Shown here: in pieces, positions 1,365-50,768 of the stretch
Layout: every line of letters begins with the position of its first letter
Position numbering within the stretch: the first letter of the stretch is position 1
Assembly (NCBI GenBank): GCA_036496605.1
Contig: DASXKV010000008.1
Span: forward strand, 1 to 64,000
Origin: Gemmatimonadaceae bacterium
GTDB lineage: Bacteria; Gemmatimonadota; Gemmatimonadetes; Gemmatimonadales; Gemmatimonadaceae
Reading direction: 5' to 3'
Length of the DNA stretch: 64,000 nt
Translations under genes and position numbers: made by a program
Notes under the pieces: model-generated
Databases searched by the model: none
What the model saw: the letters and a program-made list of their open reading frames with translations, nothing else
Told to the model about the DNA's origin: nothing

Positions 1365-2348
1365 ATGAAGCGTTCCTCCTTCATCACGTGGGATCAACTG
1401 CGCGTCGGTCTAGTCATCGTCGCCGCGCTCGGCATTCTCACCCTGGCCATCTACAAACTCGGTCAGGCAGCGAATCTGTTCGCGAAGCGGTACGACCTCA
1501 TCGCGTTCTTGAAGGAGGCGAACGGATTGCGCGTGGGCGGCACCGTGACGCTTGCCGGCCAGACGGTCGGCACTGTCAAAGCCGTCGATTTTCTGCCAGT
1601 TGACGCGGACACGTCGCGCAATCTCAAGATCACTGTCGCCATCGATCAGAGTCTCAAGGATCAGATCCGGCGCGATTCAAAAGCGCAGATCCGCACGATG
1701 GGTCTCCTCGGTGACAAAATTTTCGATATCACACCCGGAACTCCTCGCGCGGCCGTGCTGCAGGCCGGAGACACGATCGCGGTGGCACCCGCGCTCGATT
1801 ACGAGCAGGTGCTCGCGCAGGCTGCCGGCGCCGTGGGCGACGTCGTCGCGCTCACGAAGGACATGCGTCAGCTCACCGGCGGCATCGTTCGCGGCGAGGG
1901 CACGCTCGGGCAGCTCATCACGAATCGCCAGCTCTACGATCAGTTCACCAGCACGCTCGCGCGCACGAACACGATGATGGCGCGGTTGCAGAATCCGAAT
2001 GGAACGGTCGGCCGCCTGCTCGACGATCCCACGCTCTACACGAAGCTCACGGGCATGATCGCGTCGACCGATTCGCTGCTCCGCTCCGTGAACTCGGCCC
2101 AGGGCACGTTAGGCAGGATGATTCGCGACACGGTGCTCTATGGCAATCTTCTCAACATGAGCCGCGGCGCCGACTCGCTGATGCGCATGATCACCAACGG
2201 CAAAGGCACCGCCTCGAAGCTGCTCACCGACCAGACGCTGTACGACCAGTTGAACAAGCTCGTGACGGACCTCAACGCAGTGCTCGCCGACGTGCGGCGC
2301 GATCCGACGCGATATATGAAGGGCGCGATACAGGTAAGGTTGTTCTGA
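1365..2348 (+). CDS. mlaD: MlaD-like MCE-domain lipid-binding protein
   Basis: 327 residues. A single N-terminal membrane anchor lies at about 12-31 and an MCE domain at about 41-120 (YDLIAFLKEANGLRVGG, then GLLGDKIFDITPG). The C-terminal half holds about four repeats of roughly 37 residues with the pattern G-T-x-G-x-L-L-x-D-x-x-L-Y (GTLGQLITNRQLY, GTVGRLLDDPTLY, GTLGRMIRDTVLY, GTASKLLTDQTLY). Family knowledge: MCE proteins form hexameric rings that carry lipids across the periplasm, and helical tails extend the channel. The repeats suggest a longer tail than E. coli MlaD. It is the last gene of the mla operon. Confidence 0.92.
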   Translation: MKRSSFITWDQLRVGLVIVAALGILTLAIYKLGQAANLFAKRYDLIAFLKEANGLRVGGTVTLAGQTVGTVKAVDFLPVDADTSRNLKITVAIDQSLKDQIRRDSKAQIRTMGLLGDKIFDITPGTPRAAVLQAGDTIAVAPALDYEQVLAQAAGAVGDVVALTKDMRQLTGGIVRGEGTLGQLITNRQLYDQFTSTLARTNTMMARLQNPNGTVGRLLDDPTLYTKLTGMIASTDSLLRSVNSAQGTLGRMIRDTVLYGNLLNMSRGADSLMRMITNGKGTASKLLTDQTLYDQLNKLVTDLNAVLADVRRDPTRYMKGAIQVRLF

Positions 2349-2400
2349 CAATACCTCCTTCTCAGCCTTGTCAGCCTTGCCGCCTTGTCAGCCTCCGTGC

Positions 2401-2652
2401 GCGGCGAGAGCGGGACCGGGGTCGCTCCAGGGCGCTATGACGATACTGCCATTATTTCTGCGCCGTTAGGCATGATCGGTACGATGGCAGTATCGCCATA
2501 GCTGCCCCTCCGGACCCCGCTCGCGCTCTCGCCCCTGCCACCTGTCAGGGCAACCAGAGCATCCTGGCGCCGCGCTCCGACGCGCGCCCTAAGAGGAACC
2601 AATGGCAGTGTTATCATAGTGCCCCGGAGCGACCCCGCTGCTGCTATCGCGC
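2401..2652. repeat. Three copies of a 50-bp intergenic repeat, two forming an inverted pair
   Basis: The gap between mlaD and the asparaginase gene holds copy A on the - strand (2401-2452) and copies B (2484-2533) and C (2602-2652) on the + strand. All begin ATGGCAGT, continue with a CATAG block, then GGAGCGACCCC or a variant, and end in a GCTCTCGC-like run. A and B share an exact 11-base inverted match (GATACTGCCAT with ATGGCAGTATC) and could fold as one long stem. No open frame with gene character covers them. The stretch just upstream (2349-2400) contains short direct repeats of CTTGTCAGCC. Confidence 0.7.
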
Positions 2653-2747
2653 GCACCGAACGCCATGGCGCCGCGGAGCCGCGCCGCTCCTGCTATGGAG
2701 TTTCCTTTTCCACCAGCAACCAGTCACCAATAGCGAACTACCCTAAT

Positions 2748-2762
2748 TATCTTTCCCCCGTG
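2748..2762 (+). promoter_or_regulatory. Putative -10 box placing transcription start at a GTG (leaderless)
   Basis: TATCTT at 2748-2753 ends six bases before GTG 2760, which is in frame with the asparaginase-like gene. No Shine-Dalgarno sequence precedes GTG 2760 or ATG 2793. No clear -35 box is seen 17 bases upstream. The same arrangement recurs at hemW, recJ, arcA and the M20 gene. Confidence 0.4.
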
Positions 2763-3782
2763 GCAGCCGCGCCGATTTTCTCGCCGTACCCGATGAAGTC
2801 GATCGAGCTTGACGTCGTCGTCACGCGGGGTGCTGTCGTTGAATCCCGGCACCGCCTGCACGCCGCCGTGGTCGACGACAGCGGCGCCTTGATTGCTGCC
2901 GCGCGCGACCCCTCCTATGTGACCGCGTGGCGCTCGTGCGCCAAGCCATTCCAGGTGATGCCGTTCCTCGAGTCCGGCGGATTCGACAAGCTCGGATGGG
3001 GAGACGACCAGCTCGCCCTCTCCTGCGCGTCACACGGCGGTGAACCGGAGCACGTCGTCCTCGCCGAGGCGATGCTCAGCGATATCGGGATGGAGGAAGG
3101 CGATCTGGCGTGCGGGCCGCACGAGCCGCTCTCCACGCGCGGCGTTCGCGCATTGCGCGACGTAGGCGCTCGGCCCACGCGCCTCCATAACAACTGCTCG
3201 GGCAAGCACGCGGCCATGCTCGCGCGCGCTCACACGGCGGGATGGCCGACGTACGGCTACGAGCGCGAAGAGCATCCCGTTCAGCGCTGCTGTCTCGAGG
3301 CAATATCGAAGTGGGCCGGCTTGCCTCAGTCTGCCATCGGCCGCGCCGTCGACGGGTGTGGTGCGGTGGTGTTCTCGCTCCCGCTCGAGAACATGGCGCG
3401 AGCGTATGCGAATCTCGCCCGGGCGGCTCGTGACGACGACGAGGTCTCGGGACGCATCGTCCACGCAATGCAGACCCGACCCTTCCTGATCGGCGGCACC
3501 GATCGCTTCGATTCGATCTTGATCGAGGAGACGGAAGGCGCGGTGATCTCGAAGATCGGCGCCGAGGGAGTGCACTCGATTGCGGTGCCGGCGAGAGGGC
3601 TGGGCATCGCGGTCAAGGTGGAGGACGGTGCGCAGCGAGCGCAGTTCGCCGGCGTCGTGCGGGTTCTCCAGTACTTCGACGTGCTGCCGAGCCGACTGCC
3701 GCCGCGCCTCGATGAGTTCCTCCACCGCCCGATTCGCAACACGCGCGGCGAAGTGGTCGGGGAGCTTCGCGTCGAGCACTAG
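2760..3782 (+). CDS. Asparaginase II family protein
   Basis: 340 residues from GTG 2760, or 329 from ATG 2793, which gives MKSIELDVVVTRGAVVESRH, close to the usual family N terminus. Conserved blocks include CAKPFQVMPFLESGG, SCASHGGEPEHV, LHNNCSGKHAAML and VDGCGAVVFSLP, typical of the asparaginase_II family (PF06089). That family is linked to hydrolysis of asparagine to aspartate and ammonia, though few members are characterised. No signal peptide is seen, so it is probably cytoplasmic. GTG 2760 is preferred only because of the -10 box before it; ATG 2793 is a serious alternative. Confidence 0.85.
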   Translation: MAAAPIFSPYPMKSIELDVVVTRGAVVESRHRLHAAVVDDSGALIAAARDPSYVTAWRSCAKPFQVMPFLESGGFDKLGWGDDQLALSCASHGGEPEHVVLAEAMLSDIGMEEGDLACGPHEPLSTRGVRALRDVGARPTRLHNNCSGKHAAMLARAHTAGWPTYGYEREEHPVQRCCLEAISKWAGLPQSAIGRAVDGCGAVVFSLPLENMARAYANLARAARDDDEVSGRIVHAMQTRPFLIGGTDRFDSILIEETEGAVISKIGAEGVHSIAVPARGLGIAVKVEDGAQRAQFAGVVRVLQYFDVLPSRLPPRLDEFLHRPIRNTRGEVVGELRVEH

Positions 3783-3839: not shown

Positions 3840-5560
<1,721 letters not shown>

Positions 5561-5564
5561 GGCC

Positions 5565-6419
5565 GTGATTGCTCCGCCGGTCGCCATCGCGCGTGGCGAC
5601 GCCGACTATCCGCCCGCGCTGCTCGATCTGCCGCAGCCGCCGAGTATGATCTGGCGCATCGGCGATCTCGACGTTCTGAATCGTCCGGTGGTGGCGATTG
5701 TCGGGACGCGAAAGGCAACGGCATATGGTGAGCGCGTGACGCGGGAGCTCGCCGGAGCCCTCGCGCGCGGTGGAGCATGCGTTCTGAGTGGAATGGCGTT
5801 GGGGATCGATGGCGTGGCGCACGTCGCTGCGCTCGATGCCTGCGGAAAGACGGCCGCGGTGCTTGGAACCGGTGCCGACATAGCGTATCCGCCGTCTCAT
5901 CGAGGGTTGCACGCGCGGATCGGGTCGGAGGGATTGCTCCTTTCCGAATTGCCGCCGGGCGCTCACAGTCACGGCGGATCCTTCCCCAAGCGAAATCGAT
6001 TGATCGCAGCGCTGGCCCGGCTCACGATCATCGTCGAGGCGCCCGTGAAGAGCGGCGCTCTCTACACAGCCAATGATGCGGCAGCCTTGAATCGCGACGT
6101 CGGCGTCGTGCCTGGTCCGATCGATTCACCGAAGTGCGAGGGGAGCAATCTTCTGCTACGCGACGGCGCGCAAGCAATCATGTCGCCGGCGGACGCGCTC
6201 GCACTGCTCGGACTGACGCGCCCCGTCCGCACTCTCGTCGAGCTTGACGATCCGGATCAATCGCAGGTGTGGCAAGCTCTCAAGCAAGGTCCCGCGGATC
6301 TCGACACGCTCTGCCATCGCGCGTCGTTGCCAGTTCAACGTTGTCTCGCGGCCGTGACGGCGCTGGAGTTGAACGGTTCGATCGAGTGTGCTTTGACGGG
6401 GGAGGTCCGGAGGAGATGA
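5565..6419 (+). CDS. dprA: DNA-processing protein DprA
   Basis: 284 residues from GTG 5565. A Rossmann-like core shows VVAIVGTRKATAYG, SGMALGIDGVAHVAAL, AVLGTG, and GSFPKRNRLIAALA. A C-terminal winged-helix-like segment (about 215-284) follows. DprA loads RecA on incoming single-stranded DNA during natural transformation. The N-terminal SAM-like domain found in many relatives is missing, so this is a short form. Its presence is relevant to the dispersed CGTTAGGC octamer, because uptake-sequence bias is one possible explanation for it. Confidence 0.95.
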   Translation: MIAPPVAIARGDADYPPALLDLPQPPSMIWRIGDLDVLNRPVVAIVGTRKATAYGERVTRELAGALARGGACVLSGMALGIDGVAHVAALDACGKTAAVLGTGADIAYPPSHRGLHARIGSEGLLLSELPPGAHSHGGSFPKRNRLIAALARLTIIVEAPVKSGALYTANDAAALNRDVGVVPGPIDSPKCEGSNLLLRDGAQAIMSPADALALLGLTRPVRTLVELDDPDQSQVWQALKQGPADLDTLCHRASLPVQRCLAAVTALELNGSIECALTGEVRRR

Positions 6420-6472
6420 GCGAGGCGCGCGTCGAATCCTGCAGAGATTGCGCCTCGTCTCGAGTGAACGAA

Positions 6473-7058
6473 CGCTCGTACCGGGCGAATTGATGGCTGT
6501 CCAGATGAAACGAGGGCAGTGCCGATCCAAACGATCGGTGTCCCGAAGAGAATGCAGCTCGTATCGTTTGAATTGATCGGTGTAGAGAAGGGATCGCAGC
6601 TCGTATCGATTGAATGGATCGGTGTCGGGAAGGGATCGCAGCTCGTACCGATTGAATGAATCGGTTTCGAGAAAAGAATGCAGCTCGTATCGATTGAATG
6701 CATCGGTGTCGAGAAGGAATCGCAGCTCGTCCCGATTGAATGGATCGGTGTCGCGAAGGGATTGCAGCTCGTACCGATTGAATTCATCGGTGCACAGAAG
6801 AGAATGCAGCTCGTACCGATTGAATGGATCGGTGTCCAGAAGAGAAGGCAGCTCGTCCCGATCGAAGTGATCGCTGTACAAAAGAGATTGTAACTCGTAC
6901 CGATCGAAGTGATCGGTGTACCGGGAGCATCAACCGTTGTTCCGGACGAATGAATCGCCGTACACCAAGAGCTGACCGTCGAACAGCACGCATGCAAGGC
7001 TGTACAGAAAGCATCTCAGGCTGCACCGCTCGAATGCGAGGCTGTACAGAAAGCATGT
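6473..7058. repeat. 42-bp tandem repeat array, at least 12 in-register units
   Basis: Units begin at 6555, 6597, 6639, 6681, 6723, 6765, 6807, 6849, 6891, 6933, 6975 and 7017, always 42 bases apart with no indel. One shorter (38 bp) and one degenerate unit precede them. A typical unit starts CAGCTCGTACCGATTGAATG and continues GATCGGTGTCCAGAAGAGAA. Units 1-9 are alike; units 10-12 have drifted strongly but keep register. The core carries the dyad CCGAT-N7-ATCGG in most units. Variable columns show no codon-position bias, so I do not call it coding. There are no unique spacers, so it is not CRISPR. Confidence 0.85.
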
Positions 7059-7275
7059 GAGGCTATCGAGCGCAGATGCACACGCGTACCGGTTTAGTCG
7101 CGCCGCGTTCCGCTCCCATTCACCGCCGTCCAGAGTCCTCCGCTCGCCCTACAGCTGACTTCTCACCCTGCATACCTGGGATTCACGCGATCACAGACGA
7201 GATGAACCGATGTCCCGCTCGATGTGATCGCATCACCGGCGAGACTGCTCACTTCGCCGACGACATCGACGACTT

Positions 7276-7355
7276 CGGCGACGCATCTACAACTCCGGCG
7301 ACGCAGTTACAACTCCGGCGACGCATCTACAACTCCGCCGACGACAATCGACAAC
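7276..7355. repeat. 20-bp tandem repeat block
   Basis: Three consecutive 20-base units (CGGCGACGCATCTACAACTC; the middle one has AG for TC) are followed by a degenerate fourth beginning CGCCGACGACAATCG. It lies within the same gene-free island as the 42-bp array but is unrelated in sequence. Confidence 0.8.
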
Positions 7356-7746
7356 GCCGCCGCCTCCATGTCGATCATCACAGATCAGATCTCACCTTCG
7401 CCGACCGCATCGCAACAATCACAGATGCCATGTGACTCGCTGCCGTTCAGATCTCACCTCTCAGCGAAGACTCCTCTTGCCTTACCGACAATTTGATCAC
7501 TCTGCCGCTCAGTGTCCGACCGCCTCCGGTGAGATGAACCAAACCCCCGTCGAGATCCTCACGTCGCCACACCTCACCTCCATCACCCTCGGCCACCACG
7601 ACAGAGGCGCAGGTGGCCGCTTTCATTGCCCGCCAAGATGAATCAACGCAGAGAACACGATGCAGCCTCGACACGTCAGATGTTCACGGCGGTCTCCGCG
7701 TCTAAGCAGTTCCAGCCGTCAAGCGGCGCGCGCAACGCGCCCGCCC

Positions 7747-7757: not shown

Positions 7758-8879
7758 GTGCACCCTCGACACGTCTACATCCACGTTCCGTTCTGCGCGC
7801 GCCGCTGCGTGTACTGCGATTTCGCGATCGCCGTACGCCGAGACGTGCCGGTGGACGATTACGTCTCGGCGGTCGAGCGGGAGCTGAGCATTCGTTTCCC
7901 CGAGAAAGGCGCCTGGCCGGTCGAGACACTCTACTTCGGCGGCGGAACGCCCTCTCGGCTTGGCGGTGAAGGAGTCGCACAGCTGCTGGAGGCGGTGCAG
8001 CGCCGCATCAGCATCGAGCCGGGCGCCGAGGTCACCCTCGAGGCGAATCCGGAGGATGTGTCGCTCGATGCGGCAAATGCCTGGCGTTCAGCCGGCATCA
8101 ATCGGCTCTCGCTTGGCGCTCAGTCCTTCGATGACGCCGTCCTGCGCTGGATGCATCGGACCCACGACTCGCGCGCCATCGCCGCTGCAGTCGAGCGGGC
8201 GCGCGCCTCTGGGATCGACGACTTCTCGCTGGATCTGATCTTCGCGCTACCTCACGAAATCGAGCGCGATTGGGAGAGCGACGTCGCCGCCGCGCTCGAC
8301 CTCGAGCCCACGCACTTGTCGCTCTACGGCCTCACGACCGAGCCCGCCACGCCGCTCGGCAGATGGCGGGACCGAGGCATCGTAACGGAGGCTCGCGAGG
8401 AGAGTTATGAGCGCGAATACCTTTATGCGGATGAAGCGTTACGGTCGGCCGGCTTCGAGCATTACGAGGTCTCGAACTTTGGCTTGCCCGGCCGGCGCGC
8501 GAGGCACAACTCGACGTATTGGCGTGGACGCGCGTACGCTGGTTTTGGTCCCGGGGCGCATGAGTTCGATGGGGCCACGCGTCGCTGGAACGCAGATGCT
8601 TATGTCGAGTGGGCTCGTCGGCTCGCGAGCGGCGCCGATCCGATTGAAGGGAGTGAACTTCTGGACGAGGACAGCCGCGACGCAGAGCGCATTTATCTGG
8701 GGTTGCGCACCTCCGATGGGCTGCGTCTCTCCGGTGCGGAACTTGTTCGTGCGAAGGAGTGGATCGAGGCGGGGTGGGGTAAGATCATTGATGGCAGTCG
8801 GCTCAGGCTGACACCGTTGGGCTGGCTGCGCCTCGATAGCATCGCCGCCGACTTGACACTGGTTCGAAGTCGTTCCTAG
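7758..8879 (+). CDS. hemW: HemW-type radical SAM protein (heme chaperone family)
   Basis: 373 residues from GTG 7758, matching the usual HemW length. The radical SAM cluster motif is CARRCVYC (C-x3-C-x2-C) near residues 13-20, followed by DFAIAV. Other conserved blocks are VETLYFGGGTPSRL, EANPEDVS, RLSLGAQSFDD and YEVSNFGLPG. Family knowledge: HemW is related to coproporphyrinogen dehydrogenase HemN but acts in heme handling. In-frame upstream starts exist (TTG 7626, ATG 7638, ATG 7680) without Shine-Dalgarno sequences. TATCTT at 7747-7752, five bases before GTG 7758, supports a leaderless start there. Confidence 0.92.
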   Translation: MHPRHVYIHVPFCARRCVYCDFAIAVRRDVPVDDYVSAVERELSIRFPEKGAWPVETLYFGGGTPSRLGGEGVAQLLEAVQRRISIEPGAEVTLEANPEDVSLDAANAWRSAGINRLSLGAQSFDDAVLRWMHRTHDSRAIAAAVERARASGIDDFSLDLIFALPHEIERDWESDVAAALDLEPTHLSLYGLTTEPATPLGRWRDRGIVTEAREESYEREYLYADEALRSAGFEHYEVSNFGLPGRRARHNSTYWRGRAYAGFGPGAHEFDGATRRWNADAYVEWARRLASGADPIEGSELLDEDSRDAERIYLGLRTSDGLRLSGAELVRAKEWIEAGWGKIIDGSRLRLTPLGWLRLDSIAADLTLVRSRS

Positions 8880-13214: not shown

Positions 13215-13583
13215 TTATTCGTTTTCGGTGGTTTGAAGGACCTTCTTGCGGTACGTGTACGTCATCTTGCGAATCTCGATTGCCTCAGTGCTGAATTTTT
13301 CCCATTCGCCGAGCGAAAACAGATCGAGATCGCGAGCCGTGAGAAGATGGCCCTCCGTTTCATTCAATGACTTGATCGTCATATCCAGGAAGCGAGCAAA
13401 CTCCCTGTTCGTCGCCGCGCCGCAGCCCTCGGCGATCGTGTCGTGAACACTGTCCGCCGCGCCCGTGAGCTGATTCTTCAAGCGTGAGTGCCCCTTGCGC
13501 GCGAAATTGCGCGTCTGCTTGTGCAGCGCAATCGCCAAAGCGTGGGCCCGTTGCCAGATTTTGAGTGATTTGAAGTCGCGCAT
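13215..13583 (-). CDS. Four-helix-bundle protein, S23/23S-rRNA-IVP type
   Basis: 122 residues, helical throughout, starting MRDFKSLKIWQRAHALAIAL. The segment RLKNQLTGAADSVHDTIAEG and the later ARFLDMTIKSLNETEGHL are typical of the S23 family (PF05635/TIGR02436). The family was first seen as ORFs inside intervening sequences of 23S rRNA genes and is related to bAvd of diversity-generating retroelements; its biochemical role is unclear. No rRNA or reverse transcriptase is present here. The gene is antiparallel to all neighbours and sits between near-perfect 122-bp inverted repeats, which suggests a mobile unit. Confidence 0.92.
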   Translation of the reverse strand: MRDFKSLKIWQRAHALAIALHKQTRNFARKGHSRLKNQLTGAADSVHDTIAEGCGAATNREFARFLDMTIKSLNETEGHLLTARDLDLFSLGEWEKFSTEAIEIRKMTYTYRKKVLQTTENE

Positions 13584-14162: not shown

Positions 14163-14605
14163 TGGCGGCACTCTCGGAGCGCCTGCAGCGCGATCTCAAC
14201 GCAGCTCGCAAAGGTGGTGACAAGGCGCGAACGCTCCTCCTCGGCACGATCATCGCCGATGTGAAGAATCGCGAGATCGAGTTGCGCCGGGATCTCACCG
14301 ACGACGACGTGATCGAGGTGCTTCGTCGCGGCATCAAGAAGCGACGCGAGTCCGTGGAGATGTACGACAAGGGGAACCGCGCCGATCTTGCCGATAAGGA
14401 GCGTGCGGAAGCCGAAGCGCTCGGTGCGTACTTGCCCGCGGCCGTGAGCGAGGACGAGCTGCGCGCCGCGGTGCGCGCCGCGATCGCGGCCGGAGCGAAC
14501 AACATGGGTGCGGTGATGGGACGTGTGATGCCCCAGTTCAAGGGACGAGCCGAGGGTGGCGAGATCAGCGCCATCGCGAAAGACGAGTTGGGGCGAAAGC
14601 CGTGA
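14162..14605 (+). CDS. yqeY: GatB/YqeY domain protein
   Basis: 147 residues, starting [20 protein letters not shown] at the ATG that overlaps the rpsU stop. The YqeY fold signature continues with RTLLLGTIIADVKNREIELR and the C-terminal GAVMGRVMPQFKGRAEGGE. It resembles the tail domain of GatB that binds tRNA; the role of stand-alone YqeY is not well defined. Position directly after rpsU is common in bacteria. Confidence 0.92.
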   Translation: MAALSERLQRDLNAARKGGDKARTLLLGTIIADVKNREIELRRDLTDDDVIEVLRRGIKKRRESVEMYDKGNRADLADKERAEAEALGAYLPAAVSEDELRAAVRAAIAAGANNMGAVMGRVMPQFKGRAEGGEISAIAKDELGRKP

Positions 14606-14737
14606 TTGGTGGTTGGTTATTGGTTATTGGTGGTTGGTGGTTGGTGAATAATGAGGTCGGCGAGCTTTGCTCGCTGACCATCCGAATCACGAGCTACCAA
14701 TCACCAACTACCAACCACCAAATTCACCAACCACCAG
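14605..14737. repeat. Mirrored GGTTGGT / ACCAACC tract with internal hairpin
   Basis: The gap between yqeY and mutS2 begins with repeats of ATTGGTGGTTGGTT on the + strand and ends with ACCAATCACCAACTACCAAC. GGTTGGTGAAT (14639-14649) pairs exactly with ATTCACCAACC (14722-14732). Between them a separate stem, GGTCGGCGAG (14655-14664) with CTCGCTGACC (14670-14679), has a 5-base loop and one G-U pair. No poly-T follows, so it is not a classical terminator. The related tract before obg is one-sided. Confidence 0.7.
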
Positions 14738-21441: not shown

Positions 21442-21957
21442 GTGCGCATCGTTGCCGGTCGCTGGCGCGGCCGCACGATCAAGCCGCCAGCCGACTCTCG
21501 CGTTCGTCCGACCGCCGATCGCGTGCGTGAAGCGTGGATGAGCATCGTCATGCCCGAGCTTCCTGGCGCGCGCGTGCTCGACCTCTTTGCCGGCTCGGGC
21601 GCGTTGGGGCTGGAAGCACTCTCGCGCGGCGCCGCGACCGCCGAATTCGTCGAGCTGGCGCCGAAAAGCCTGCGAGCGCTGAAGGAGAATGCCGAGTCAT
21701 TGGGCGCCGGCGATGCAGCGGTGATCCACCGAGCCGACGCGCTCCGATTCGTCAGCGCACTCGAGCCGCGCGCGTTCGACGTCGCCTTTGCCGACCCTCC
21801 CTATTCGCTGAGACTCGCGACGCGGCTTGCCGCGCTCTGGCTCGCGGTGCCATTTGCCGCGGTTCTCGGAATAGAACACCGACAGGACGAGGTGCTCCCC
21901 GGCGACGGTGACCGGCGCAAATACGGTGACACGGTCGTGACGATCTATAGGGGTTAG
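21442..21957 (+). CDS. rsmD: 16S rRNA (guanine-966-N2)-methyltransferase RsmD
   Basis: 171 residues from GTG 21442 (MRIVAGRWRGRTIKPP). SAM motif I is VLDLFAGSGALGLEALSRGA and the catalytic motif is FADPPYS. It methylates G966 of 16S rRNA. The final codons AGG GGT TAG, giving Arg-Gly-stop, are part of a TAGGGG repeat tract that starts inside the gene, so the repeat supplies the stop codon. coaD follows 128 bases later, as in many bacteria. Confidence 0.94.
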   Translation: MRIVAGRWRGRTIKPPADSRVRPTADRVREAWMSIVMPELPGARVLDLFAGSGALGLEALSRGAATAEFVELAPKSLRALKENAESLGAGDAAVIHRADALRFVSALEPRAFDVAFADPPYSLRLATRLAALWLAVPFAAVLGIEHRQDEVLPGDGDRRKYGDTVVTIYRG

Positions 21958-22060
21958 GGTTTAGGGGCTAGGGGTTAGGGTTTAGGGGCTAGGGTTTACC
22001 GATTTGGTGATTAAGGTTGACCCTAGCCCCTAGCCCCTAGCCCCCAGACCCTAGCCCCTC
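21950..22060. repeat. Telomere-like GGGGTTAGGG tract with C-rich mirror
   Basis: 21950-21997 has seven or more G runs with 3-base linkers (GGGGTTAGGGTTTAGGGGCT...). 22018-22060 has the complementary CCCTAGCCCC units. The G-rich half fits the G-quadruplex pattern G3+N1-7 and could also pair with the C-rich half as a long hairpin. Shorter relatives occur after the SpoIIE gene (26113-26141) and at the end of the MBL gene (31000-31012). Confidence 0.85.
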
Positions 22061-50712: not shown

Positions 50713-50721
50713 GCGGGTGGA

Positions 50722-50752
50722 GGGTAGAGGGTTGAGGGTAGAGGGTTGAGGG
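50722..50752 (+). repeat. GGGTAGAGGGTTGA tandem tract, G-quadruplex pattern
   Basis: Just after the glycosidase stop, GGGTAGAGGGTTGAGGGTAG and AGGGTTGAGGG give five G runs each separated by four bases. The 14-bp unit repeats about three times. It lies upstream of the tRNA promoter. Confidence 0.75.
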
Positions 50753-50768
50753 CAGAGAGTTGAGCCGC

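Follow-up and report, generated by a model that had tools for sequence, protein, structure and literature searches.

The non-coding tandem array found between dprA and hemW in a 64,000-nucleotide stretch of a Gemmatimonadaceae bacterium genome (contig DASXKV010000008.1; hereafter, the window) is, judging from sequence comparison, a gene-less and decaying relic of a dispersed leader of about 1.2 kb that was inserted at this place. Elsewhere, arrays with the same 21-bp step stand upstream of the members of an orphan gene family. Because dozens of loci have this step in common despite their unrelated sequences, a phased DNA array is the best lead. We tentatively propose (probability about 0.45) that the complete elements are helically phased, multi-site DNA platforms that would control the adjacent gene, the window copy being what would be left of one of them. 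On comparative sequence evidence, a phase-locked, sequence-free array paired with an orphan protein appears to be new as a kind, and the literature searched contained no description of such arrays.

The window array and its insertion between dprA and hemW

A 42-bp tandem array was identified by TRF at 6533-6919 (score 443), with a 126-bp higher order also reported. Identity at lag 42 was 0.76-0.90 across most of this array and 0.5-0.76 onward to about 7040, while lags 41 and 43 gave about 0.12-0.3. The preliminary description of this DNA had reported a 42-bp register maintained while the sequence drifts. The array is indeed real and lag 42 far exceeds its neighbors, but positions 6473-6532 are out of register (at 6473, lag 41, 0.55, exceeds lag 42, 0.33, a one-base slip), the basic period is 21 bp, and the register extends further. 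Identity at lag 21 was 0.5-0.62 over 6893-7060. The 21-bp array called by TRF, the lag tables and the extension of the register by a hidden Markov model (HMM) (Table 1) indicated that the 42-bp unit is a recent local dimer of a more basic 21-bp unit within a longer 21-bp array. Since the basic period is 21 bp, units 10-12, formerly taken for drifted 42-mers, are better read as diverged 21-mers.

The motif CCGAT-N7-ATCGG is present in most of the 42-bp units, as had been described, and its inner five pairs are 95.6% paired. The suggestion that this dyad is an operator or an RNA hairpin was not supported. In the window units no pair was changed on both sides and covariation was equal to that of shuffles. 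Neither pooled base-pair covariation nor a general dyad was detected in the other arrays, although some single arrays, mainly those with a 42-bp order, exceeded shuffles. RNA folding energies were inconsistent between loci and favored no consistent strand.

Other repeats were observed in the window. At 7258-7343, downstream of the 21-bp array, lies a separate 20-bp tandem repeat (CGACGCATCTACAACTCCGG, about 4 copies) of a different period. Intergenic heptamer tandem repeats (7/14/21 bp, e.g., CCCTAGC and GGGTTGA) are found at 4491-4534, 14602-14721, 21948-22059 and 50715-50764, and another follows a degraded orphan gene on contig 12 (locus L069); they recall cyanobacterial short tandem repeats. 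An open reading frame at 13215-13583 (minus strand), near heptamer repeats, was judged by eye to encode a four-helix bundle of the rRNA intervening-sequence type.

The distance from the dprA stop codon to the HVYIHVPFC motif of HemW is 1351 bp in the window. In 12 of 16 measurable relatives it is 23-104 bp and in the others 163-844 bp, and a congener (G002) has no array after dprA. Because dprA and hemW nearly abut in relatives, the window copy was interpreted as an insertion from which the gene has been lost. The expectation that related genomes would carry the array next to dprA or hemW failed for the same reason: the element is an insertion there. The informative comparison is that of the orphan gene family. 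In the leader that follows the window array, the arms of a hairpin were kept and the loop pairing was lost. No present function need be assumed for this copy.

Table 1. Features of the window in and around the segment inserted between dprA and hemW.
Feature	Coordinates	Strand	Basis	Remarks
dprA, flanking gene	5565..6419	+	ORF; DprA homologues in 38 of 41 relatives searched	Inserted segment begins right after its stop codon
Inserted segment	6420..7769	.	Length comparison with relatives	Lies between dprA and hemW
21-bp-period array	6441..7557	+	21-state circular HMM	About 53 units, 7 single-base register shifts; weak at the ends and towards 7557
Nine 42-bp units	6533..6931	+	TRF, lag tables	Array of the preliminary description; local 21+21 dimer expansion
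21-bp units, GCATGCGAGGCTGTACAGAAA-like	6983..7064	+	TRF, genome search	Family consensus common to the copies on contigs 33, 36, 69 and 67
Non-array 3' part of the leader	7080..7590	+	Copy alignment	74-88% identical to the copies on contigs 36, 33 and 12; single-base indels
Eroded leader hairpin, GGCCACC...GGTGGCC	7591..7618	+	Sequence	In intact sister copies the loop GGACGC pairs with downstream GCGTCC (pseudoknot)
Possible trace of the lost orphan gene's start, MNQRREHDA...	7638..7690	+	Sequence comparison only	Uncertain; compare MKNKQNAVL in the contig 33 copy
hemW, flanking gene	7758..8879	+	ORF	True start probably near 7758

A search of the same genome (5.97 Mb, 70 contigs) showed homologous array copies on contigs 33, 36, 67, 69 and 12, several of them at contig ends. 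These copies share one register and, as in the window, are followed by a non-array leader common to them. The contig 36 copy leads into a ribosome-binding site and the gene start MKYQENAVLDALL..., and that on contig 33 into a truncated relative of the orphan gene, MKNKQNAVLDALLSR*; the orphan gene is multi-copy in this genome. When close paralogues of the window copy were compared, the gaps within the array were mostly of 21, 63, 84 or 126 bp, or pieces summing to 21, whereas single-base indels dominate the flank. A few gaps of 1-5 bp at the 5' end depart from this pattern, as do the more diverged comparisons with the window copy, in which the alignment is ambiguous.

The orphan gene family and its upstream arrays

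The orphan gene, in whose start codon the complete leader copies end, encodes an all-helical protein of about 230 amino acids whose tail is rich in Pro and Ala. Of 395 genomes sampled from across the phylum, 43 contained the gene; they belong to two families (f1 and f2) of a single order and carry as many as seven copies each. The named relatives that carry it are Gemmatimonadetes or Gemmatimonadales soil genomes. Two further contigs, binned as Deltaproteobacteria and Acidobacteria, may reflect horizontal transfer or mis-binning. No match to Pfam, NCBIfam, PADLOC or PHROGs was consistent across the members, which gave single weak hits only; a PDB sequence search returned nothing, and the viral contigs searched contained no relatives. 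A confident AlphaFold2 model built from 7 sequences (mean pLDDT 84.5) has two long helices, 27-88 and 133-189. Foldseek found no significant match for it, the nearest shape being the McpS helical bimodular domain 2yfb (TM 0.55, E 0.26), and neither Pfam nor fold comparison recognized a DNA-binding domain.

A 21-bp periodicity (lag 21, 42 or 63 on top) was detected upstream of 39 of 44 family loci and in 44 of 253 control stretches taken downstream, far upstream or in other windows (about 17%; Mann-Whitney p=1.6e-14). All 11 held-out members had it. Four or five family loci lack an upstream array (L135, L147, L150, L161, L132); one of them, L147 (G052:C28), has a strong 21-bp signal downstream of the gene (combined z 12.5). 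The arrays consist of 12-65 units each. Their consensus differs from locus to locus and is similar between arrays of closely related proteins (Mantel r=0.41 against protein similarity), and the strand composition is G-rich at some loci and C-rich at others. The step is exactly 21: identity was 0.396 at lag 210 and 0.337 at lag 420, compared with 0.276-0.318 one base off. Units one step apart share about 49% identity, and yet the HMM found 52 single-base shifts in 34 arrays (21.9 kb), and 13 of the 34 had none. The arrays are non-coding, with a period-3 z of 0.4 as opposed to 39.7 in real open reading frames folded at 21, and stop codons are not avoided. The register is therefore not that of a reading frame, in agreement with the absence of codon-position bias noted in the preliminary description.

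The leaders between array and gene differ between the two families. A sigma-54-type promoter, called when at least 10 of 12 consensus positions were present with GG-N10-GC, was found in 12 of 19 f2 leaders at -115 to -231, eleven of them at -115 to -142 from the start codon (shuffles, 2%). Most f2 arrays lie upstream of this promoter point. None of 26 f1 leaders, including those of the window genome, had the motif. Most f1 leaders, again including the window genome, have instead a hairpin whose loop GGACGC pairs with GCGTCC about 30 bases before the start codon. The score of this pseudoknot was unmatched by any shuffle in 15 of 27 leaders. The stem sequences vary while the pairing is kept, and the loop helix also varies (e.g., GGGTGCC with GGCACCC); in L136 and L137 the arms are fully paired. 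This H-type pseudoknot with its strongly covarying stem, located in the last 80 bases before the ATG (L132, L138, L163, L242), is a candidate new cis-regulatory RNA. A search of Rfam gave no match for the array or the pseudoknot, only sub-threshold similarities to eukaryotic microRNAs.

Within 2 kb of 15 of about 32 f1 loci there is a sigma-70-like gene, which in many cases is divergent across the array; 172 kb of control DNA contained none. The 15 genes vary in position and strand. At L088 (G000:C38), the frame of a sigma-70-like open reading frame (1816-3033) extends into the first part of the 21-bp array. A FecR-type gene, a CHAP-type endolysin and an Amidase_2 gene are also present at some loci, together with small membrane proteins that look like holins and spanins and may be lysis proteins. 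Transposase-like genes lie beside some loci. Behind the orphan gene at G000:C4 (L217), G067:C21 (L221), G088:C9 (L212) and G361:C48 (L240) there is an operon-like row of small membrane proteins, an Amidase_2 gene and a coiled membrane protein; at some of these loci CHAP, sigma and FecR genes are close by. This row looks like a domesticated lysis island.

A proposed phased DNA array and the alternatives

In its complete form the element has 12-65 non-coding units kept strictly in 21-bp register, followed by a promoter or leader RNA and by the orphan gene. In the mechanism that we propose, the array would most likely work as DNA. With one site per two turns of B-DNA, the proteins at successive units would lie on the same face of the helix, bind side by side and cooperatively, and the bound platform would set the expression of the adjacent gene. 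In f2 it would be enhancer-like, upstream of the sigma-54 promoter; in f1 it would sit within a regulatory region shared with the sigma-70-like gene. Whole units could be gained or lost by unequal exchange or slippage, and substitutions would be tolerated as long as the spacing holds. We infer from the sequence comparison that a protein binds the array, that selection preserves the phasing and that the role is regulatory. The DNA would be read by its phase, since the two-turn step is constant and the sequence is free. Control of transcription is suggested by the position of the array, which in f2 precedes a sigma-54 promoter and in f1 adjoins a sigma gene. Some observations count against the phased platform: the consensus is set per locus, unlike that of known operators, f1 has no sigma-54 motif, its sigma-70-like genes vary in position and strand, no DNA-binding domain was recognized in the orphan protein, and a few family loci lack the array. 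The idea of a helix-phased array, already put forward in the preliminary description, remains the best lead, but the 10.5-bp harmonic of column conservation was weak (without the HMM, p about 0.02-0.04) and a shift of 10 gave an autocorrelation near zero. An HMM-profile version of the test gave z=4.2, a value inflated mostly by neighbor correlation.

The same arrays could be selfish or mutational products, satellites that arise by slippage and unequal exchange of 21-bp units and ride with a mobile gene while having no function of their own. Gains and losses of whole units, the local dimer expansion, the patchy multi-copy distribution, the contig ends within copies and the transposase-like genes at some loci are consistent with this origin, which we nonetheless regard as unlikely: slippage leaves unexplained a period of 21 at dozens of loci of unrelated sequence, the persistence of phase over at least 400 bp among anciently diverged units, and the location of the arrays upstream rather than downstream of the gene. 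Nor do we find it probable that the helical protein uses the array as an extended site, origin-like or partition-like, to move or copy the element. The iteron-like spacing of about two turns and the multiplication of array and gene within genomes point that way, but the chance is small, as no replication initiator, ParA-like or recombinase gene is conserved at the loci and neither element ends nor target-site duplications are defined. Nothing speaks for a centromere-like site, which had been listed as a candidate: the copies are dispersed, number from one to seven in a genome and adjoin a single gene family, and no partition ATPase was recognized among the recurrent neighbors.

That the array is transcribed and acts as RNA, either through repeated hairpins or through guide-type units that would be processed and taken up by the helical protein as in TIGR or CRISPR arrays, seems quite unlikely. 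The leader RNA probably matters, since in f1 the pseudoknot is found just downstream of the array; the single orphan protein beside locus-specific units recalls TIGR loci (PMC12045711), and the window array was more stable than shuffles when its sense strand was folded (z=-4.5). However, unit positions showed no pooled covariation, the excess of folding and its strand were inconsistent, composition swings from G-rich to C-rich between loci, and neither a layout of constant repeats and variable spacers nor a Nop-like domain or fold was found. A protein-coding repeat is refuted as far as sequence allows. Seven codons make 21 bp, and the divisibility of the period by three and several frames open by chance would suit heptapeptide repeats; but a three-base conservation pattern and stop avoidance are lacking and single-base shifts are present, so that this explanation has almost no chance of being correct.

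Relation to known systems and significance

Sigma-54 enhancers usually consist of a few sites of one conserved sequence. They are the upstream activating sequences to which bacterial enhancer-binding proteins attach (PMC7175178). The f2 arrays resemble them in lying upstream of a GG-N10-GC promoter, at the usual position of such sites, and phased sites are plausible; they differ in having 12-50 drifting units, and f1, the group of the window, lacks such a promoter. An array upstream of the promoter, as in a sigma-54 enhancer, was found at 12 of the 19 f2 loci and in none of the 26 f1 loci. The iterons of plasmid origins are direct repeats about two helical turns apart, next to the gene for the protein that binds them. 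The arrays share with them this spacing and the proximity of a gene whose protein could bind the repeats, but they are chromosomal, occur at many loci and have far more units, which are about 50% alike. The copies are on chromosomal contigs and no Rep initiator was found among the recurrent neighbors, which separates them from plasmid iteron origins.

CRISPR arrays have near-identical repeats, unrelated spacers and cas genes. No repeat/spacer layout was found here, and PADLOC returned only single weak hits at chance level. TIGR-Tas systems produce 36-nt RNAs from units in which constant repeats delimit two spacers, and their protein carries a Nop domain (PMC12045711). Both kinds of loci have an array beside one protein and repeats that differ between loci, but the units described here are of 21 bp with graded conservation and no constant or variable blocks. 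No Nop family was present in the Pfam matches of 33 members or among the best PDB matches. REP/BIME and cyanobacterial heptamer repeats are dispersed intergenic repeats of bacteria. Our arrays are likewise dispersed and non-coding, with some copies without any gene; unlike those repeats, they are long, phase-locked, tied to one gene family and not based on palindromes. They also differ from tandem-repeat protein genes, as no codon-position signal or stop avoidance was detected.

A wider interpretation, which we consider doubtful, is that these loci form a new class of element whose sole conserved property is the 21-bp step. The array would form a phased nucleoprotein filament recognized by the product of the following gene, and the locus-specific pairs of protein and array would act as a tightly held switch, perhaps of a lysis programme, in a phylum-restricted multiplying family.

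The comparison indicates that a drifting, junk-like repeat can be recognized for what it is when genes, not sequences, are compared. It also yields an orphan protein family, a candidate new pseudoknot in the leaders and, in a soil phylum that has been little studied, a regulatory locus open to experimental test. If the reading as a phased DNA platform is true, selection would act on the spacing of the units and hardly on their sequence over dozens of loci, a situation rarely so plain in bacteria, and the family would provide a natural collection of loci for asking what reads helical phase.
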